DNA from: an uncultured Flavobacteriaceae bacterium
Lineage (GTDB): Bacteria; Bacteroidota; Bacteroidia; Flavobacteriales; Flavobacteriaceae
DNA length: 64,000 bases
Direction: 5' to 3'
Assembly: GCA_947500385.1 (NCBI GenBank)
Contig: CANMSA010000003.1
Location: forward strand, 248,001 to 312,000
Shown: in pieces, positions 17,571-25,720 of the stretch
Position numbering within the stretch: the stretch's first letter is position 1
Layout: every line of letters begins with the position of its first letter
Position numbers and translations under genes: made by a program
Notes under the pieces: generated by a model
Told to the model about the DNA's origin: nothing
Database searches by the model: none
The model's input: the letters and a program-made list of their open reading frames with translations, nothing else

Positions 17571-19325
17571 ATGAAAAAAGCACTACTATTATTTCTATCC
17601 TTCGTATTGTTGACCAGTTTCCACGCGATTTCACAGAAATCGGAAAAAATTGTTTCAGGGAAGGTATCCGATGGTCAAAACCCCATTAAAAATGTTTCGA
17701 TTACGGTCAAGGGAACGGAACAAATTACCTATACCGATGCTTTGGGAAAGTATCAAATGTCGACAGCGGTAGGGGATGTCCTGGTTTATTCTTACACCGG
17801 ATTGAAGAGTTTGGAAATATTGGTCGAAGACGTAACAAGAACAATTAACCTCACGATGTTTCCCGATGTGGCAGAGCTGGATGAGGTAGTGGTTACCAAA
17901 AGTAAACGGAAGTCCCAAGATGATTTGGAAATAGAATTCAATACAAACCCATATTTGGTTCGATCGGCTTTTGGTATCATTGATCCGGAAACGGCCGCTT
18001 TTCAAGTTAGGGTGCTGCCTGCCACAAGTATACAAGCTGTGGGATTGTGTATTTTGGATGTGTTGCGAAACGAGTTTCCAGGAGTGAGTATTATCGGGGA
18101 TTGTTTAGAAGGAGGTAGTGTAAGCGTGCGAGGCGCTAGTTCCATTTCGAACAACCAACCGGCCATATTTGATGTGGACGGTCAAATTTTTACCGATGTT
18201 CCGATATGGCTTTCTCCGGGAAATATGGAACGTATTGCATTAATGTCCGGTTTAGCGGCCAGAAATCTCTATGGTGCCATTGCTTCTGGCGGGGTAGTGG
18301 TTATCAATACCAATGCGGGCAATGCATACGCCAAATCTGGAGAAATTCAAGACAAGTTAAGACTTCGGGATAACCTGTACCAAGGGGATGCCCGTAGCCA
18401 AAATGCGCTTCTTGCGGATCGCCCCACCTATTACCAGGAAATATACAATAGTAACTCCTTGGAAGCCGCCAAAGAAACCTACAGATCTTTTGCAGGTCAG
18501 TACAAGAATAGTTATACTTTTTTTGTAGACGCGTACGCTATTTTTTCAGATAAGTGGGAAGCCACGGATTTTGCCGAACGTATTGTTCAAGACAATTACA
18601 ACATTTTTGATGGGAACCCGCTCGCCATGAAATCCTTGGCCTTCCATTATGAAGCACAAGGGGCCTATGATAAAGCCAATACCTTATATAAGGAAGTCTT
18701 TTTATTAAGACCGGCCTACGCCCAATCCTATCTTGATGTGGCCGAAAGTTATCGACAGATCGGTGCGTATAAGAAGGCGGCTTCCATTTTTGTTCGATAC
18801 GATTACCTTGTACAGGAAGGGTTTATGAAACCGGCCGAGGAAGCTTTTTCGTCGCTTATGGATCGCGAACTCAACAACTTGGTTACGATTCAGGGAAAAG
18901 ATGTGCTTCCCGAAAGCAAACCTAAAAGTTATTTATTGGAAGAAGATTTTGATGGCACTCGCCTGCTGTTTGAATGGAGCGATAGTGAGGCAGAATTTGA
19001 GTTGCAACTAGTGAATCCCTTAAAGAACTTTCAAAAATGGCAACATACGTTGGCCGAGAATGAAGCCACCATTAGGGATGAAAAACTAAAAGGGTATGCA
19101 ACGAAAGAATACTTGATCGATGGTTCCTTAAGCGGAGATTGGCTGGTAAACGTAAACTATCTTGGCAATAAGAGCCTTACCCCGACCTATCTAAAGGCAA
19201 CTATCTTTTACAACTACGGACAGAAGTCTCAAAGCGAGGAAGTTAAGGTCTTTAAACTAGGCCTTAAAGGGGTGAACCAGCAATTGTTCAAAGTACGGGG
19301 TTCAGGAAAAGTAGCTGCAAACTAA
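17571..19325 (+). CDS. CarboxypepD_reg - TonB plug - TPR - DUF2135-like protein, copy 1
   Basis: A 584-residue exported protein. Order: signal peptide (1-21), CarboxypepD_reg-like Ig fold (about 27-108, from VSGKVSDGQNPIKNVSI to LDEVVV), a TonB plug domain (about 150-250, with VSVRGASS, PAIFDVDGQIF and GAIASGGVVVINT), a linker, TPR-like helices (about 350-425, RPAYAQSYLDVAESYRQIG), and a C-terminal beta domain (about 455-575) from GTRLLFEWSDSEAEFELQL. The last resembles DUF2135/YfaP in its W-D...D-L...NP and GY..EEY...G.W.V.V.Y.G patterns. There is no beta-barrel, so this is not a complete TonB receptor. Function unknown; first of four tandem copies. Confidence 0.85.
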   Translation: MKKALLLFLSFVLLTSFHAISQKSEKIVSGKVSDGQNPIKNVSITVKGTEQITYTDALGKYQMSTAVGDVLVYSYTGLKSLEILVEDVTRTINLTMFPDVAELDEVVVTKSKRKSQDDLEIEFNTNPYLVRSAFGIIDPETAAFQVRVLPATSIQAVGLCILDVLRNEFPGVSIIGDCLEGGSVSVRGASSISNNQPAIFDVDGQIFTDVPIWLSPGNMERIALMSGLAARNLYGAIASGGVVVINTNAGNAYAKSGEIQDKLRLRDNLYQGDARSQNALLADRPTYYQEIYNSNSLEAAKETYRSFAGQYKNSYTFFVDAYAIFSDKWEATDFAERIVQDNYNIFDGNPLAMKSLAFHYEAQGAYDKANTLYKEVFLLRPAYAQSYLDVAESYRQIGAYKKAASIFVRYDYLVQEGFMKPAEEAFSSLMDRELNNLVTIQGKDVLPESKPKSYLLEEDFDGTRLLFEWSDSEAEFELQLVNPLKNFQKWQHTLAENEATIRDEKLKGYATKEYLIDGSLSGDWLVNVNYLGNKSLTPTYLKATIFYNYGQKSQSEEVKVFKLGLKGVNQQLFKVRGSGKVAAN

Positions 19326-19379
19326 GGTAGTTTATACCGTGTAAACTTCTATATATTAATAAACTTCAAATTGGTAGGG

Positions 19380-21164
19380 ATGCAAAATCAAAAGACCGGC
19401 CATTACCGCAGTATCGTTATCCTCTTTTTTGCCTTCACCTGTAGTTTTGTTGGGTATACCCAATCTAAAGAAAACACCATTTCCGGCAAGGTGACCAGCT
19501 TAGGGGAACCCTTGGCCGACGTAAATGTTAGTATCAAAGGAACCGATAAAGGGGTCCAGACGGATTCGCTGGGTACGTATGCGTTAAAAGTACGTCCGTT
19601 GGATATGGTTGTTTTTAGCCATATAGGAATGGTTCCCCAAGAAATAATCGTGGAAGATGTTACCAGGGTCATAAACATTCGTATGGAGCCTTTGGTAAAC
19701 GAGTTGGAAGAGGTGGTAGTATCAAAAAGGATACGCAAAACACAAGAAAGCCTGGCTAAAAATTACTTCAGTGATGCTTCTATTGTAAAGTCTACGCACG
19801 GCTATTTGAGCCCATCGATCGTAGGTTATGAACTCCGCGTAGTGGATGGGAAAGACCTAAACGCCTCCGCAAGGGATATTTTAGATGCGATCGCCAAACA
19901 GTTACCCGGTACGGTAGTAAGGGAAAACCCGAATGGTACCATAGGGAGATTTCTCTTTGCCCAAAATTATGGGTCCTTGCGCGGCGCGGCGCCCCTGAGG
20001 TTCGAGGTAGATGGCGCCGTACTTCAAGAAGTTCCCACTTGGCTCGATATAAGAACCGTCATCCGGGTCGCCATTATGCCTGCTTCGGAAGCGATTTACC
20101 GGTATGGAAAAGCCGGTACGGGAGGTATGGTCATTATAAACACCAACAATACTGAATATGGTTTTCGGGATAAAGATGGACGTGCCTATGACGCGTTTCG
20201 GTTGGATAACAACACCTATATCGATAATGCGATAAGCGGGGAAAAAGTATTGGAAAATGGCCCAAGTTATCTAAAGCAACTTAAGGGAAGCGGTCAGATA
20301 CAGGATGTGCTTTCTACATATCGTGAGTACCGAAACAACCATGGCAGTTCCTATGCCTTCGTTTTGGATGTGTGTACCGTATTATTGGATACATTCAATG
20401 CGAAAGAAGAAGCAGGGAATATTGTACAAGAACATACACACCTTTTTAAGGAAAACCCGATCGCCTTAAAGGCCTTGGCCTATGTGTATGAAGCATATGG
20501 GATGCCCAAGAAAGCGCATGAAGTATATAGAAGTATTTATAAAATACGACCGGCCTACTCCCAATCTTATATGGACCTGGCCAATAGCTATAGAAATATA
20601 GGGGATTATAAACAGGCGGCCGCGATTTACAGTCGGTACGAACATTTAAAAAAAATCGAGTATTTAAAGAATGACTCCACTTCATTTTTACCCATAATCA
20701 ATAGGGAGATGAATAATTTGCTTGTTATGCGGGGAGCGGAAATGTTCGATTTTAGGAAAAAGAACGAATACGTCTGGGACGAGGATTTTGATGGTACCCG
20801 TTTGGTATTCGAATGGAACGATGGCGAGGCCGAGTTTGAACTACAGTTTGTAAATCCGTTGGGCAATTATCACAATGCCATACATTCCATGGTCTCGGAT
20901 CCCAAGCGAATCAGGGACGAAAAAATGAACGGCTACGCGTGCGATGAGTATCTGATAGACAACTCCCTGAAAGGCGATTGGTTGGTAAACGTGAAATATT
21001 TAGGGAATAAAAGCTTAACGGCTACGTATTTGAAAACCACCATTTATCGTAATTATGGCAGTCCCAACCAGGAGCGGGAAGTGAAAGTGTTTAGGTTGGG
21101 CGTGAAAGGTGTAAGTCAAAAGCTCTTTAAAGTGCAAGGTTCTGGCAAGCTAGTGTCAAAGTGA
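19380..21164 (+). CDS. CarboxypepD_reg - TonB plug - TPR - DUF2135-like protein, copy 2
   Basis: About 594 residues, same layout as its neighbours: signal peptide to about residue 28 (FVGYTQS), CarboxypepD_reg domain ISGKVTSLGEPLADVNVSI through LEEVVV, plug with YGSLRGAAPLRFEVDGAVL and GGMVIINT, TPR with RPAYSQSYMDLANSYRNIG, and C-terminal domain GTRLVFEWNDGEAEFEL. Its plug is the most divergent of the four: GKAGTGG replaces the usual GAIASGG. ATG at 19380 is preferred over a TTG three codons earlier. No barrel and no known function. Confidence 0.84.
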   Translation: MQNQKTGHYRSIVILFFAFTCSFVGYTQSKENTISGKVTSLGEPLADVNVSIKGTDKGVQTDSLGTYALKVRPLDMVVFSHIGMVPQEIIVEDVTRVINIRMEPLVNELEEVVVSKRIRKTQESLAKNYFSDASIVKSTHGYLSPSIVGYELRVVDGKDLNASARDILDAIAKQLPGTVVRENPNGTIGRFLFAQNYGSLRGAAPLRFEVDGAVLQEVPTWLDIRTVIRVAIMPASEAIYRYGKAGTGGMVIINTNNTEYGFRDKDGRAYDAFRLDNNTYIDNAISGEKVLENGPSYLKQLKGSGQIQDVLSTYREYRNNHGSSYAFVLDVCTVLLDTFNAKEEAGNIVQEHTHLFKENPIALKALAYVYEAYGMPKKAHEVYRSIYKIRPAYSQSYMDLANSYRNIGDYKQAAAIYSRYEHLKKIEYLKNDSTSFLPIINREMNNLLVMRGAEMFDFRKKNEYVWDEDFDGTRLVFEWNDGEAEFELQFVNPLGNYHNAIHSMVSDPKRIRDEKMNGYACDEYLIDNSLKGDWLVNVKYLGNKSLTATYLKTTIYRNYGSPNQEREVKVFRLGVKGVSQKLFKVQGSGKLVSK

Positions 21165-21255
21165 ATAACCTTTGAAATTTTAAGATTTTTTTGGCTCTAT
21201 ACCTATAAAATTAGATGGAAATTTACATCATAGCTAATTCATCAATCAAATCAAC

Positions 21256-23010
21256 ATGACCAGACTTCTTCCTGTCCTATTTTTTCTATTTTTTAGTGCG
21301 ATATCTTTTGCCCAATCAGGGGAAAACACCATTTCCGGAATCGTAACGGATTATGGGCAACCCTTGCCAAGGGTAAATATTTCGATCAAAGGTACCTCCG
21401 AGGGAATCCAAACAGATGCAAAGGGGAAATACTCGCTAACGGCCAGACCAAGAGATATACTGGTCTTTAGCTATGTGGGTATGAAAACGGTAGAAGTGGT
21501 TGTGGAGGATGTCACCAAAACCTTGAACATCGCCATGCAACCGCAAATTCAAGAGTTGGATGAGGTCGTGGTAGAGCAAAAGAAACGAGAGAATCAAGAG
21601 CAGATGTTGCTTGATTATGGTAAAAAAAAGAGTATTATACGTACCTCCTTTGGTTATATCGATACGGAGAATGCAGGGTATGCGGTCAACTCAATTGATG
21701 GGGCGGACCTAAACCCTTCGGCAATCGATATTGTTACTGCTTTGCAGGCAAAACTTCCTGGTACAAGAGTCGTTGATTTTGGGACTGGCGGGCAAGAGGG
21801 TGGCCTTTCCGGAAAAGGTATCTTGATTCGTGGTGGTGGGTCTGCCAACAATCCAAGGCCGGCAATCTATGAAGTAGATGGTACCATCTTTGAATCTGCA
21901 CCGGATTTCCTGATAATTGATAATATCGATCGTGTTGCCGTGCTTCCCGGATTGGCGGCGGTCACCCGTTACGGTAATATTGCCGGTGGAGGGGTGATTA
22001 TTATCAATACAAAAGGAGCCAAAATAATTAAGCGGGAAAAAGGGAGCAATAAAGTTTATGACCAAGCCAGGAGAAGAGACAATATGTACAATAAGAATAG
22101 TACCGTTTCCAAGTTCAAAAGGGAAGCGCCCAAATATGTTTTGGAGCTAAGGGCAGCTACTTCTTTGGAGGAAGCGAAGGCAACCTATGACAAGCAAAAA
22201 GCTATTCGGGGGAGTTCTCCTTATTACTATTTGGATGCTTTTAATTTCTTCCGTAGTAAGTGGAAAGATTCCGGTATGGACACCACGGTTCTGGAGGAAA
22301 TGAAGGCGAAACATGGTAGCAACCCAAACGCCTTGAAAGCCTTGGCCTATACTTTTGAAGAATTGGGTGATCTTAAGGCCGCCATGGCCCTTTATGTAGA
22401 CGTTTTTAAGAAACGACCTAGTTACGGACAGTCGTATCGGGATTTGGCCAATAGCTATACGGAGAATGGCAGTTATAAGAAAGCACTTGGATTGTATGCC
22501 AGGTACCAAAAGTCTCGCGCTCTGGACACGGTTACCGGGGAATTTGAGGGAATTGACGCAATCATGGAGACCGAGTCGAACAATTTGTTGACCCTGCACA
22601 AGAAAGAACTTTCTATGGAGGGTGGTGATGGTCAAGCAGATGACTATAATGGGATCCGTGTGGTCTTTGAATGGAACAATAGCGAAGCGGAGTTTGATAT
22701 TCAATTTGTAAACCCGGAAAATCAGTACTCCTTATGGAAGCATACGTATGAAGAGGAAAGCGAGCGTATTACCGATGAGAAAATGAAGGGGTATAGTTCG
22801 GCACAGTTTTTAATAGACAAAAGCTTACCGGGAAAATGGCAAATGAATATCAAGTATTTCGGGAATAAAAGTTACGAGCCGACTTATTTGAAGGCTACGG
22901 TTTATTACGATTATGGGACCCCCTCGCAGAAAAAACAGCTAAAAGTGTTTAAACTTTCCCAAACTAATTTAAATACAGAGTTGTTTTCGGTGATGAATCC
23001 GGCTTTTTAA
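21256..23010 (+). CDS. CarboxypepD_reg - TonB plug - TPR - DUF2135-like protein, copy 3
   Basis: A 584-residue exported protein with signal peptide 1-20 (AISFAQS). CarboxypepD_reg domain ISGIVTDYGQPLPRVNISIKGT through LDEVVV, plug with ILIRGGGSANNPRPAIYEVDG and GGGVIIINT, TPR with RPSYGQSYRDLANSYTENG, and DUF2135-like domain GIRVVFEWNNSEAEFDIQF ending near residue 575. ILIRGGGS is close to the plug sequence of true TonB-dependent receptors. It lacks the 400-700 residue barrel, replaced by TPR and the C-terminal beta domain. Confidence 0.85.
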   Translation: MTRLLPVLFFLFFSAISFAQSGENTISGIVTDYGQPLPRVNISIKGTSEGIQTDAKGKYSLTARPRDILVFSYVGMKTVEVVVEDVTKTLNIAMQPQIQELDEVVVEQKKRENQEQMLLDYGKKKSIIRTSFGYIDTENAGYAVNSIDGADLNPSAIDIVTALQAKLPGTRVVDFGTGGQEGGLSGKGILIRGGGSANNPRPAIYEVDGTIFESAPDFLIIDNIDRVAVLPGLAAVTRYGNIAGGGVIIINTKGAKIIKREKGSNKVYDQARRRDNMYNKNSTVSKFKREAPKYVLELRAATSLEEAKATYDKQKAIRGSSPYYYLDAFNFFRSKWKDSGMDTTVLEEMKAKHGSNPNALKALAYTFEELGDLKAAMALYVDVFKKRPSYGQSYRDLANSYTENGSYKKALGLYARYQKSRALDTVTGEFEGIDAIMETESNNLLTLHKKELSMEGGDGQADDYNGIRVVFEWNNSEAEFDIQFVNPENQYSLWKHTYEEESERITDEKMKGYSSAQFLIDKSLPGKWQMNIKYFGNKSYEPTYLKATVYYDYGTPSQKKQLKVFKLSQTNLNTELFSVMNPAF

Positions 23011-23101
23011 ACTTTCCTTATACCGATAGACATAAGATGCTGGTCAGGTGCCAAACGGTGGTGTTTTTTTCTTATCTTTTGAAAAGAAAAAGTACCCACC
23101 A

Positions 23102-25720
23102 ATGATGACCGCTAGACTCTTTTCCCTATTATGTTGCTTTTTTTTCATGACCCCTGCTGTTTCTCAGTTACAGTACAAAGGATTTGTGAAAGATTCGAAA
23201 ACAAAAGAATCCCTTGCTTACGTAAACATTGGCGTACTTAAAAAAGGTGTAGGTACGGTGACCGATGAAGACGGAAGGTTCTTTTTGGCTATTGACCGGG
23301 ACAAGATCGCGCTTACCGATACCCTTCAGATTTCGTCGGTAGGCTATAAGACGATTAAAAAAACGATCGGTGATATCAATTTCTCCCCCACAAGAAAGGC
23401 CATTGTCCTAATGGAGCCGGATGTTGTTAGTTTGGATGAAGTGGTGCTCTCGGCCGGATCCGAAGAAATCCGGCAAAGAAAGGTAGGCTATTATTTTGGT
23501 AAGACCAATAAAGTAGGCTACTGGCGGGGCATTACTTCTTTGGGCGCCGAAATGGTGACGAAAATAAGGGTAAATAGGCGACCACGGCAGCTCAATGAGT
23601 TTTCTTTCCATGTGCTTTCGAATGCCGCCGATAGTCTGCTATTGCGGGTAAACGTGTACAAGGGTGATAGCGAATTTCCGGAAGAAAAATTGAGTACCAA
23701 GAATATGATCTTCACCTTAAAGAAAAAGAAAGGGAAGGTCATATTCGATCTTACCCCTTATGAGCTATATGTTAACGACGATTTTAGTATTGGGCTCGAA
23801 CTTCTCGATGTGTATGGGAAACGAGTGAATCTTACCTTGGCCGCCTCTGATGACCCAGGTACTTCTTATCGGCGTTATGCAAGCCAGGACGAATGGAAGC
23901 GCTATCGAAATGACGCTTTGATTTTTTATGTCAACACCACTATTTTCGCCAAAGACGATTTGATTGCGGGCACCGAGGACAATGAATTTTTAAATAGCCC
24001 GGCGCGGGATAGTTTGCCCGAAGAGGTGAGCGGTATTGTTTTTAATAATGGAAAACCGCTACCCAACGCCGATGTAAAGGTAGAAGGGAAAAACATCTCG
24101 GTCAAAACAGATGACAACGGACGCTATCGGATCAAGGCCGAAATGGGAGATATTTTAACCTTTGGTTTTTTGGATATGGAAACGGTCTCGCGTACCGTGT
24201 TGGAGACCACTTTTGGCATCAATGTATCCATGCAGGTAAAGGTCAACGAACTGGACAATGTCACGGTCACCGAGCGTAAAAAACTCAAAAAAACACAGAC
24301 CGAGTTGTTTGAGGAATACAACTCCAACCCTAATTTGATCAAGACCGCTTATGGTATATTGGACAAAGAAACTTCAGGGGTTGATTTTTATGTTATTGGG
24401 GAAGAAGACTTTAAAGTTACTTCGAATAACATTTTGGAAGTAATTCTCGGTAAGTTCCCAGGGGTACGTTTGGCGCCTACAGATCATCCTAGAAAAAGCG
24501 CAAGTCCGTTTGATGAAAAAGCCGCTGTTTTTATGAGAGGTGGTAGTTCCATTTTAAATCCACAACCCGCTATTTTTGAAGTAGATGGGATTATAGACCC
24601 CAGGGTACCAAGGCATCTAAACTTGGACAATATTACCCGAATTGCCATATTGCCGGGCTTGGCTGCGGTAAATAGGTATGGGGCCATAGCTTCTGGTGGC
24701 GTGGTGGTGATCAATACCAAAGTGAATAATGGTTCCCCAAAAGGTGGAAAGAAGCCGGTAGATGCCTTACAGGTCAAAAACAATGTCTATGAAAACGACG
24801 CTATTGATCGGTCGCAGGTACGGCTAAACTGGCCGAAGTACCTTCAAGAGTTACATGCTTCAAAGACCTATACCGAGTCCAATGAGATCTATGAAAAATA
24901 TAACGTGCAATTTTCGGGCTCGCCATTTTTCTATATCGATGCCTATCATTATTTTAAAGAAAGTTGGAACGATACTACTGATATTGATTCGGTCATTATG
25001 GAACGGTCAAACGTTTTTGGGGATGATACCCCGGCACTGGTCGGGTTGGCTTACGCCTATGAAAAAGCGGGGGAACTACAACGGGCGCAATTGGTCTACA
25101 AAAAGATATTCAAGTTGCGTCCCAACCATGCACAATCGTACCTGGACCTTTCCAGGAACTATGTACAAATGGGATCATACGCCAAGGCACTGAATCTATA
25201 CTCCCGTTACAACTATTTGCTAAATCAGCAGTTTCTGGAAGCGAAATCCGAGGGTTCACATGCAATCATACGCACCGAGTTCAATAATTTGGTCAGACAA
25301 CATGGGAAGCAATTGGTGACCGAGTCGGAGGCCCCTTTAGAGGCCGATCCGGAGGCGCCTACCGGTACGCGCATTGTGCTAGACTGGAACGATGCCACGG
25401 CCGATTTTGAGTTGCAGTTTGTAAACCCGAGAAACCGTTACTTCAGTTGGCAAAGCTTAGGGGAAGATGGAAGAAATAAAACGGAACAGGTGTATAGTAA
25501 GGAATATTTCATCGATGATTATATGAAAGGCGACTGGGCAATAAACATCAACTACAAAGGAGCGGCAACCGCTGGTCCCGTTTATATGAAGGCGACTATT
25601 TTCTTCAACTATGGTACGGAGGCCGAACGCAGTACCATGCGCGTTTATCGGTTGGGGTTAAAAAACGTGAATCAGGAACTTTTTAGGCTTACCGGCAATC
25701 CAATGACCGCGACTAGATAG
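23102..25720 (+). CDS. Double CarboxypepD_reg - TonB plug - TPR - DUF2135-like protein, copy 4 (extended)
   Basis: The longest copy, about 872 residues. After a signal peptide (PAVSQ) comes an extra N-terminal CarboxypepD_reg domain (about 20-105, FVKDSKTKESLAYVNIGVL) and an extra beta-rich module (about 130-290, NEFSFHVLSN, DLTPYELYVND). A second CarboxypepD_reg domain (about 310-390), plug (GGSSILNPQPAIFEVDG, GAIASGGVVVINT), TPR (RPNHAQSYLDLSRNYVQMG) and the C-terminal domain GTRIVLDWNDATADFEL complete it. The start is the ATG pair at 23102/23105; an upstream GTG at 23048 would add 18 residues before the signal peptide. It appears to be a fusion of a separate CarboxypepD_reg protein with a family member. 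Confidence 0.85.
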   Translation: MMTARLFSLLCCFFFMTPAVSQLQYKGFVKDSKTKESLAYVNIGVLKKGVGTVTDEDGRFFLAIDRDKIALTDTLQISSVGYKTIKKTIGDINFSPTRKAIVLMEPDVVSLDEVVLSAGSEEIRQRKVGYYFGKTNKVGYWRGITSLGAEMVTKIRVNRRPRQLNEFSFHVLSNAADSLLLRVNVYKGDSEFPEEKLSTKNMIFTLKKKKGKVIFDLTPYELYVNDDFSIGLELLDVYGKRVNLTLAASDDPGTSYRRYASQDEWKRYRNDALIFYVNTTIFAKDDLIAGTEDNEFLNSPARDSLPEEVSGIVFNNGKPLPNADVKVEGKNISVKTDDNGRYRIKAEMGDILTFGFLDMETVSRTVLETTFGINVSMQVKVNELDNVTVTERKKLKKTQTELFEEYNSNPNLIKTAYGILDKETSGVDFYVIGEEDFKVTSNNILEVILGKFPGVRLAPTDHPRKSASPFDEKAAVFMRGGSSILNPQPAIFEVDGIIDPRVPRHLNLDNITRIAILPGLAAVNRYGAIASGGVVVINTKVNNGSPKGGKKPVDALQVKNNVYENDAIDRSQVRLNWPKYLQELHASKTYTESNEIYEKYNVQFSGSPFFYIDAYHYFKESWNDTTDIDSVIMERSNVFGDDTPALVGLAYAYEKAGELQRAQLVYKKIFKLRPNHAQSYLDLSRNYVQMGSYAKALNLYSRYNYLLNQQFLEAKSEGSHAIIRTEFNNLVRQHGKQLVTESEAPLEADPEAPTGTRIVLDWNDATADFELQFVNPRNRYFSWQSLGEDGRNKTEQVYSKEYFIDDYMKGDWAININYKGAATAGPVYMKATIFFNYGTEAERSTMRVYRLGLKNVNQELFRLTGNPMTATR

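Follow-up and report, generated by a model that had tools for sequence, protein, structure and literature searches.

A four-gene array of barrel-less TonB-plug proteins with TPR and DUF2135-like domains in a Flavobacteriaceae bacterium

Architecture of the array

The window analysed here, a stretch of 64,000 nucleotides from an uncultured Flavobacteriaceae bacterium, contains four intact, adjacent open reading frames on one strand between positions 17571 and 25720 (Table 1). Their common core consists of a carboxypeptidase-regulatory domain (CPD), here of the NTE type (PF13715, CarbopepD_reg_2), followed by a TonB-box peptide, a TonB plug, TPR helices and a C-terminal DUF2135-like domain. The original observation is confirmed, with the correction that gene 4 is no plain fourth copy, a different protein of ~320 residues being fused to the front of its core; the in-frame ATG at 23102 is a likelier start for this gene than the GTG at 23048. 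Identity to gene 1 is 38-42% for genes 2-4. By eye, the N-termini of the four proteins resemble ordinary signal peptides without a lipobox, and nothing seen in them would fix them to the outer membrane, the site suggested originally.

The array is flanked upstream by MR_MLE_C/MenC_N, Rce1-like (CPBP), AMP-binding, DUF4886 and Peptidase_M24 genes and downstream by Carboxyl_trans, GFO_IDH_MocA and ABC_tran genes (Pfam assignments). These eight genes are housekeeping-like or unrelated, and the Pfam scan found no SusC, SusD or BAM gene among them. The promoter consensus of Bacteroidota, TTTG-N17-23-TANNTTTG, does not occur on the plus strand between 15000 and 28000.

Table 1. Positions of the array genes and of their parts in the window
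Feature	Position	Strand	Remarks
Gene 1	17571..19325	+	584 aa; signal peptide (by eye), CPD/NTE, TonB box, plug, TPR, DUF2135
Gene 1 TonB-box peptide LDEVVV	17877..17894	+	Family box aligns with the Bt1763 box
Gene 1 plug core	18030..18314	+	Not listed by Pfam; aligned in the family whose profile matches SusC plugs
Gene 1 TPR helices	18420..18890	+	Pfam
Gene 1 DUF2135-like domain	18954..19271	+	Pfam and six-frame scan
Gene 2	19380..21164	+	594 aa, ATG at 19380; domain order as in gene 1
Gene 2 TonB-box peptide LEEVVV	19704..19721	+	Sequence
Gene 2 plug core	19824..20147	+	RG motif lost
Gene 2 TPR helices	20259..20729	+	Pfam
Gene 2 DUF2135-like domain	20793..21110	+	Pfam and six-frame scan
Gene 3	21256..23010	+	584 aa; domain order as in gene 1; AlphaFold2 structure predicted
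Gene 3 TonB-box peptide LDEVVV	21556..21573	+	Within a segment of pLDDT <50
Gene 3 plug core	21676..22014	+	Pfam Plug 2.3e-5; profile against SusC structures
Gene 3 TPR helices	22126..22596	+	Pfam and predicted structure
Gene 3 DUF2135-like beta domain	22651..22968	+	Pfam 6.6e-6 and predicted structure
Gene 4	23048..25720	+	890 aa from GTG; partner protein fused to plug-TPR-DUF2135 core
Gene 4 fused partner part	23102..24010	+	CPD with box LDEVVL (23432-23449) and beta-sandwich
Gene 4 core TonB-box peptide LDNVTV	24251..24268	+	Sequence
Gene 4 plug core	24377..24721	+	Replaced or rapidly diverged by comparison with sister species
Gene 4 TPR helices	24830..25300	+	Pfam
Gene 4 DUF2135-like domain	25364..25666	+	Pfam and six-frame scan

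The CPD scores above the Pfam cut-off in all four genes, whereas Pfam Plug does so only in gene 3, is sub-threshold in gene 2 (0.12) and is not listed for genes 1 and 4 at E<=1. For DUF2135, gene 3 lies above the cut-off and genes 1, 2 and 4 slightly under it (19.0-19.5 bits against 22); in a six-frame scan of the genome all four score above it, with no further DUF2135 listed at E<=0.001. The E. coli control genome also matches DUF2135 in a six-frame scan. The protein concerned, which we take to be YfaP, belongs to the same domain family and is likened to the array by family only; it is not known to have the CPD-plug-TPR architecture.

Further evidence for the plug comes from a family profile of 109 sequences (the window's four plus 105 taken from public contigs, selected by length and coverage and then aligned), which matches SusC structures over NTE plus box and over the plug (8aa4_A, 3.6e-21; 5t3r_D, 6e-21). 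The AlphaFold2 model of gene 3, predicted with the family alignment as input, has a mean pLDDT of 86.1; helices span residues 293-447, and residues 467-581 form a beta domain. The top solved Foldseek match of the model is 9hfj, the NTE of SusC BT3090 (TMt 0.84, rmsd 1.3 A); TPR proteins make up the majority of the best 50 matches, and SusC 8aa4 is found at rank 26 over 124 columns. A receptor barrel is absent from the gene 3 model and from the Pfam assignments of all four proteins, and all four reading frames end with a small beta domain behind the TPR helices. The model and the profile thus bear out the predicted plug without a barrel, joined to TPR and a DUF2135-like domain: the plug is of the SusC class, and no ordinary receptor barrel takes up the C-terminus. 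Since a plug is present without a barrel, the proteins are not transporters, as had been proposed. The literature searches, outside which lay most subscription papers and all preprints, likewise showed no paper on this architecture, in agreement with the statement that no function has been described for it.

SusC/RagA receptors (TIGR04056; Bt1763, BT3090, RagA) share with the array the PF13715 NTE, the TonB box and the plug, in the same order, together with the plug motifs VDG and YG..GG(V)..(I)NT. However, the array proteins continue with TPR and DUF2135 instead of a barrel, reach only 56-118 bits against the TIGR04056 model (cut-off 368) and lack an adjacent gene for the SusD lid. Elsewhere in the same genome, a 131-aa predicted lipoprotein (contig C2, L141:1427-1819; lipobox by eye) carries a plug signature at its end and resembles a free-standing barrel-less plug, with an in-frame Plug match of 23.2 bits, slightly below the cut-off.

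The TonB box and the selection on the array

In each of the four proteins the core CPD is directly followed by a hexapeptide resembling a TonB box (Table 1), read from the sequence only and degenerate in the core of gene 4. The profile alignment places the family hexamer on the SusC box, and its position after the NTE is that of Bt1763. There, the box (81-VDEVVV-86) follows a PF13715 NTE and is proven experimentally: deleting it or changing it to alanines impairs growth much as deleting SusD does, and the peptide is unstructured by NMR (PMC7782687). Among the 109 family sequences L101 is kept in 109, V104 in 107, V106 in 103 and E103 in 99, with exact LDEVVV in 50, and in a ranking of 537 hexamers by mean entropy the box takes 8th place for conservation. 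The gene 3 model puts this peptide within a segment (residues 101-111) of pLDDT <50. Conservation in a disordered segment is expected of a binding peptide, and four TonB_C matches above the cut-off in the genome mean that possible grippers exist. However, the partner protein described below, which has no plug, carries a like peptide after its first CPD (LNEVVV in 6/21, LDEVVV in 5/21); the hexapeptide might therefore be a tail that CPDs of this class conserve for another role.

Each array gene has closer orthologs in related genomes than its own array neighbours; for gene 1 these are 89% (L013) and 87% (L014) identical. All four genes are under strong purifying selection across their whole length, with dN/dS of 0.02-0.07 in the five of eight sister-species ortholog comparisons in which dS was measurable and pN/pS of 0.08-0.09 in the three in which pS was saturated. 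Between sister species, the plugs of genes 1, 2 and 3 are 97%, 87% and 97% identical (TPR: 85%, 74% and 92%), which makes the plug the best or joint-best kept folded domain of these proteins. Such well-diverged paralogs, each with its own orthologs under purifying selection, fit different roles and, as to the different partners or ligands suggested originally, point to no particular one.

In gene 4, the plug is the domain least kept relative to sister species (54%): here protein identity with the orthologs of L047 and L040 drops locally to 54-57%, abruptly on the left and gradually on the right. Nucleotide identity with L047 is 51-63% over residues ~436-555, against 72-88% in the left flank and 67-76% in the hundred residues that follow on the right. 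L047 and L040 are ~95% identical in protein sequence across the same stretch, and no closer donor was found among the best matches in the fetched loci. The gene 4 plug could be a cassette replaced by recombination or, alternatively, the product of fast divergence.

Spread, partner protein and VIT-type relatives

A match to the whole core, running uninterrupted from position 45 or earlier to 550 or later, was counted by hand in at least 47/199 genomes of the window's family, among at most six scored candidates per genome. A TPR-DUF2135 profile gave strong matches (E <= 1e-50, with a gap from 1.5e-60 to 2e-12) in at least 39/392 genomes of the phylum, again counted by hand and mostly among five scored candidates per genome. 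Both counts leave out ordinary receptors and TPR proteins, with which they become 199/199 and 360/392. The short type of ~580 aa, as judged by open frame, occurs in seven of the 39 genomes, all belonging to the window's own family. The locus is often kept: the core lies between homologs of the M24 peptidase and the carboxyl transferase in 35 of the 58 named-contig loci (L013-L070), while of the remaining 23 at least six lie elsewhere (L054, L056, L057, L058, L062 and L068) and most others are incomplete. No relative of gene 1 was found on viral contigs, PHROGs gave no match to gene 3 or the partner part, and PADLOC gave none to six proteins (the four of the window and two VIT-type relatives).

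The N-terminal CPD and beta-sandwich of gene 4 match a separate gene that lies beside the array in other genomes and encodes a protein of ~380 aa with the order CPD, beta-sandwich, CPD. A partner match occurs in 37/136 core-bearing loci, a count that includes three copies of the window (L003, L004 and L009) and one locus with a CPD match only (L186), many of the loci being incomplete. The partner is fused to the core in two separate clades, that of gene 4 (window, L029, L040 and L047) and one of ~1000-aa proteins (L117, L129, L130, L131 and L137), which hints that core and partner may act together. The model of the partner (pLDDT 79.9, pTM 0.54) matches the SusC NTE; its other structural matches are weak, for example to the lectin-like part of Cwp84.

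The C-terminal TPR-DUF2135 half of the array proteins is homologous to that of long VIT-type proteins. In a Pfam scan of 29 relatives longer than 900 aa, VIT and DUF2135 were both above the cut-off in 26, with a VWA-type match in seven of these, always sub-threshold; neither domain was listed in the other three (L129, L131 and L137). The slot before the TPRs of the 26 holds CPD and plug in five, a plug in one, a CPD in three and TonB_C in one, while in the other 16 nothing is recognised; TonB-facing parts are thus no general feature of the wider VIT family. The protein with TonB_C is a VIT-TPR-DUF2135 protein encoded on the minus strand (L127:5244-8480), in which this domain (2.7e-5, barely above the cut-off) occupies the position of CPD and plug. 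No family name was found for the long VIT-TPR-DUF2135 proteins of Bacteroidota, whose VIT part is weakly like marine sortase-target and XrtN-system VIT proteins. By contrast, Pfam finds no VIT domain in the window proteins, and their DUF2135 domains have replaced the VIT-type motifs of the WNHNDTDIDLH and GFGPE kinds, which suggests a changed binding site.

How are the two types related? Three of 13 long-type loci of the window's family (L118, L122 and L124) lie at the MenC-CPBP-AMP-ligase spot of the array (the 13 being L118-L128, L191 and L192, fetched with wide flanks, ten of them scanned for VIT). The same locus in L133 encodes a 574-aa CPD-plug-TPR protein, for which Pfam lists no DUF2135 at E<=0.1 and which groups with the VIT clade on a long branch. 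This placement hints that VIT may have been lost more than once. An unrooted tree of 99 of the 193 rows places array-type and VIT-type proteins on two sides of well-supported branches, parted by a long branch; nesting of the array inside the VIT clade was considered and dropped on this account. Six rows (L064, L117, L129, L130, L131 and L137) were labelled VIT in the tree by length, wrongly: the three scanned with Pfam (L129, L131 and L137) have no VIT, and the partner part is present instead in five of the six. Probably the array genes are relatives of the long VIT-[slot]-TPR-DUF2135 proteins that were shortened at the N-terminus and duplicated in tandem, where the direction of change is one we infer. 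With no root to the tree and a long branch between the two types, it is only plausible that the array descends from VIT-type genes, as argued from phylogenetic spread and synteny. A further type of ~740 aa comprises L031:5661-7892 and eight similar proteins, often in the same array; eight of the nine are in the tree and form one group (support 86). In the Pfam scan of L031, the core comes after a VWA match below the cut-off, a CPD and a plug.

In one related family, the slots of 18 VIT-type proteins (L159, L161, L165 and L194-L208) hold short SusC-like pieces in varying order and are otherwise poorly alignable. A plug-like pattern, [LIVM]xGxxxG[VIL], occurs in 13/18 slots (shuffle mean 0.09; 0/18 in both control stretches). 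The box pattern is present in 7/18 (shuffle 0.43; 0/18 in one control stretch and 11/18 in the TPR control stretch) and an RG pattern in 3/18. Among 19 other, hand-picked VIT-type proteins without a Pfam plug, five have the plug-like pattern, four the box pattern and 14 neither. In the alignment of the 18 proteins the box region ranks 514/560 in conservation, and a selected lone box in plug-less VIT proteins was dropped as evidence, the patterns being noted as an observation.

A putative TonB-driven adaptor and its alternatives

Why would the front end of a receptor be kept where there is no barrel? The reading that we prefer, to which we give a probability of roughly 0.35, is that the array proteins are soluble periplasmic adaptors gripped via the box. 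Exported and probably soluble in the periplasm, they retain in full the part of SusC that faces TonB (NTE, TonB box and plug). The C-terminal domain of a TonB-family protein would then grip the disordered box adjoining the NTE, and the plug would be the module that is pulled or gated. TPR and DUF2135, in the place of the barrel, would hold a non-transporter client in the envelope together with the CPD-sandwich partner, fused in gene 4. We infer the periplasmic location, the TonB binding and the client binding, and no case is known in which TonB pulls a soluble protein made by the cell itself. The adaptor reading is favoured by a box that resembles the proven one of Bt1763 in sequence and place and by its conservation, by the selection on the genes, the well-kept plugs of genes 1-3 and the partner fusions, as well as by TonB_C in the plug slot of L127 and the four TonB_C matches of the genome. 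However, the partner CPD has a box and no plug, gene 4 combines a degenerate box with a 54% plug, the box region of the VIT slots ranks low in conservation and the loose box pattern is frequent in TPR control stretches.

The nearest rival, close to the idea put forward originally and almost as probable in our estimate, is that NTE and plug serve as beta-rich modules for docking a ligand or protein without TonB, with the TPR recruiting partners and the box a passive tail of the CPD. The box peptide of the plug-less partner would fit this well, and TPR and beta domains are binding-type folds. The RIEVL-type plug position, which is acidic in many TonB-dependent receptors, is moreover Ala or Gly in 109/109 family sequences (Asp and Gln in two aligned SusC chains), suggesting a changed plug surface. 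However, docking leaves unexplained why a disordered hexapeptide like the proven box should rank among the most conserved of the family.

It is far less probable that the proteins regulate SusC receptors or outer-membrane protein assembly, with plug and NTE acting as decoys for SusC barrels that are empty or for the BAM complex of Bacteroidota. BamP, a Bacteroidota BAM subunit, also starts with an NTE-like domain, and a BamP loop is reported to bind the BamA seam (PMC12611786), which counts for a decoy. The array proteins score 30-43 bits against the NCBIfam BamP model (NF053692, cut-off 230; gene 3 at 4.5e-11, far below the cut-off), chiefly over the N-terminal half of BamP with its CPD-like domain, and the family profile matches the BamP chain 9n2d_E at 2.4e-9 over profile positions 1-116. 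However, the likeness resides chiefly in the signal peptide and the CPD region common to SusC NTEs, and the scanned flanking genes offer no BAM or SusC/SusD neighbour. That the genes are fossils, a captured and decaying 5' part of a SusC gene, is very improbable: the weak or missing Pfam Plug of genes 1, 2 and 4 and the poorly kept plug of gene 4 would suit decay, but strong purifying selection over all four whole genes and the spread of the whole core in the family argue against it, and the well-kept plugs contradict it for genes 1-3.

In most discussions, what TonB systems serve is a barrel in the outer membrane. If the adaptor reading were to be extended, TonB-type transducers of Bacteroidota would also drive soluble barrel-less plug proteins, and NTE, box and plug would form a transferable 'TonB handle', interchangeable with TonB_C and carried by tandem arrays and by certain VIT-type proteins; we regard this wider proposal as unlikely. 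Were it true, the 'TonB handle' would couple the inner-membrane motor to periplasmic clients. The family could also help to explain DUF2135 and the NTE, whose function is called unknown in an earlier study (PMC7782687). As a widespread family under selection that has TonB-facing parts without a barrel, it provides a clean test of whether box plus plug is a separable device.
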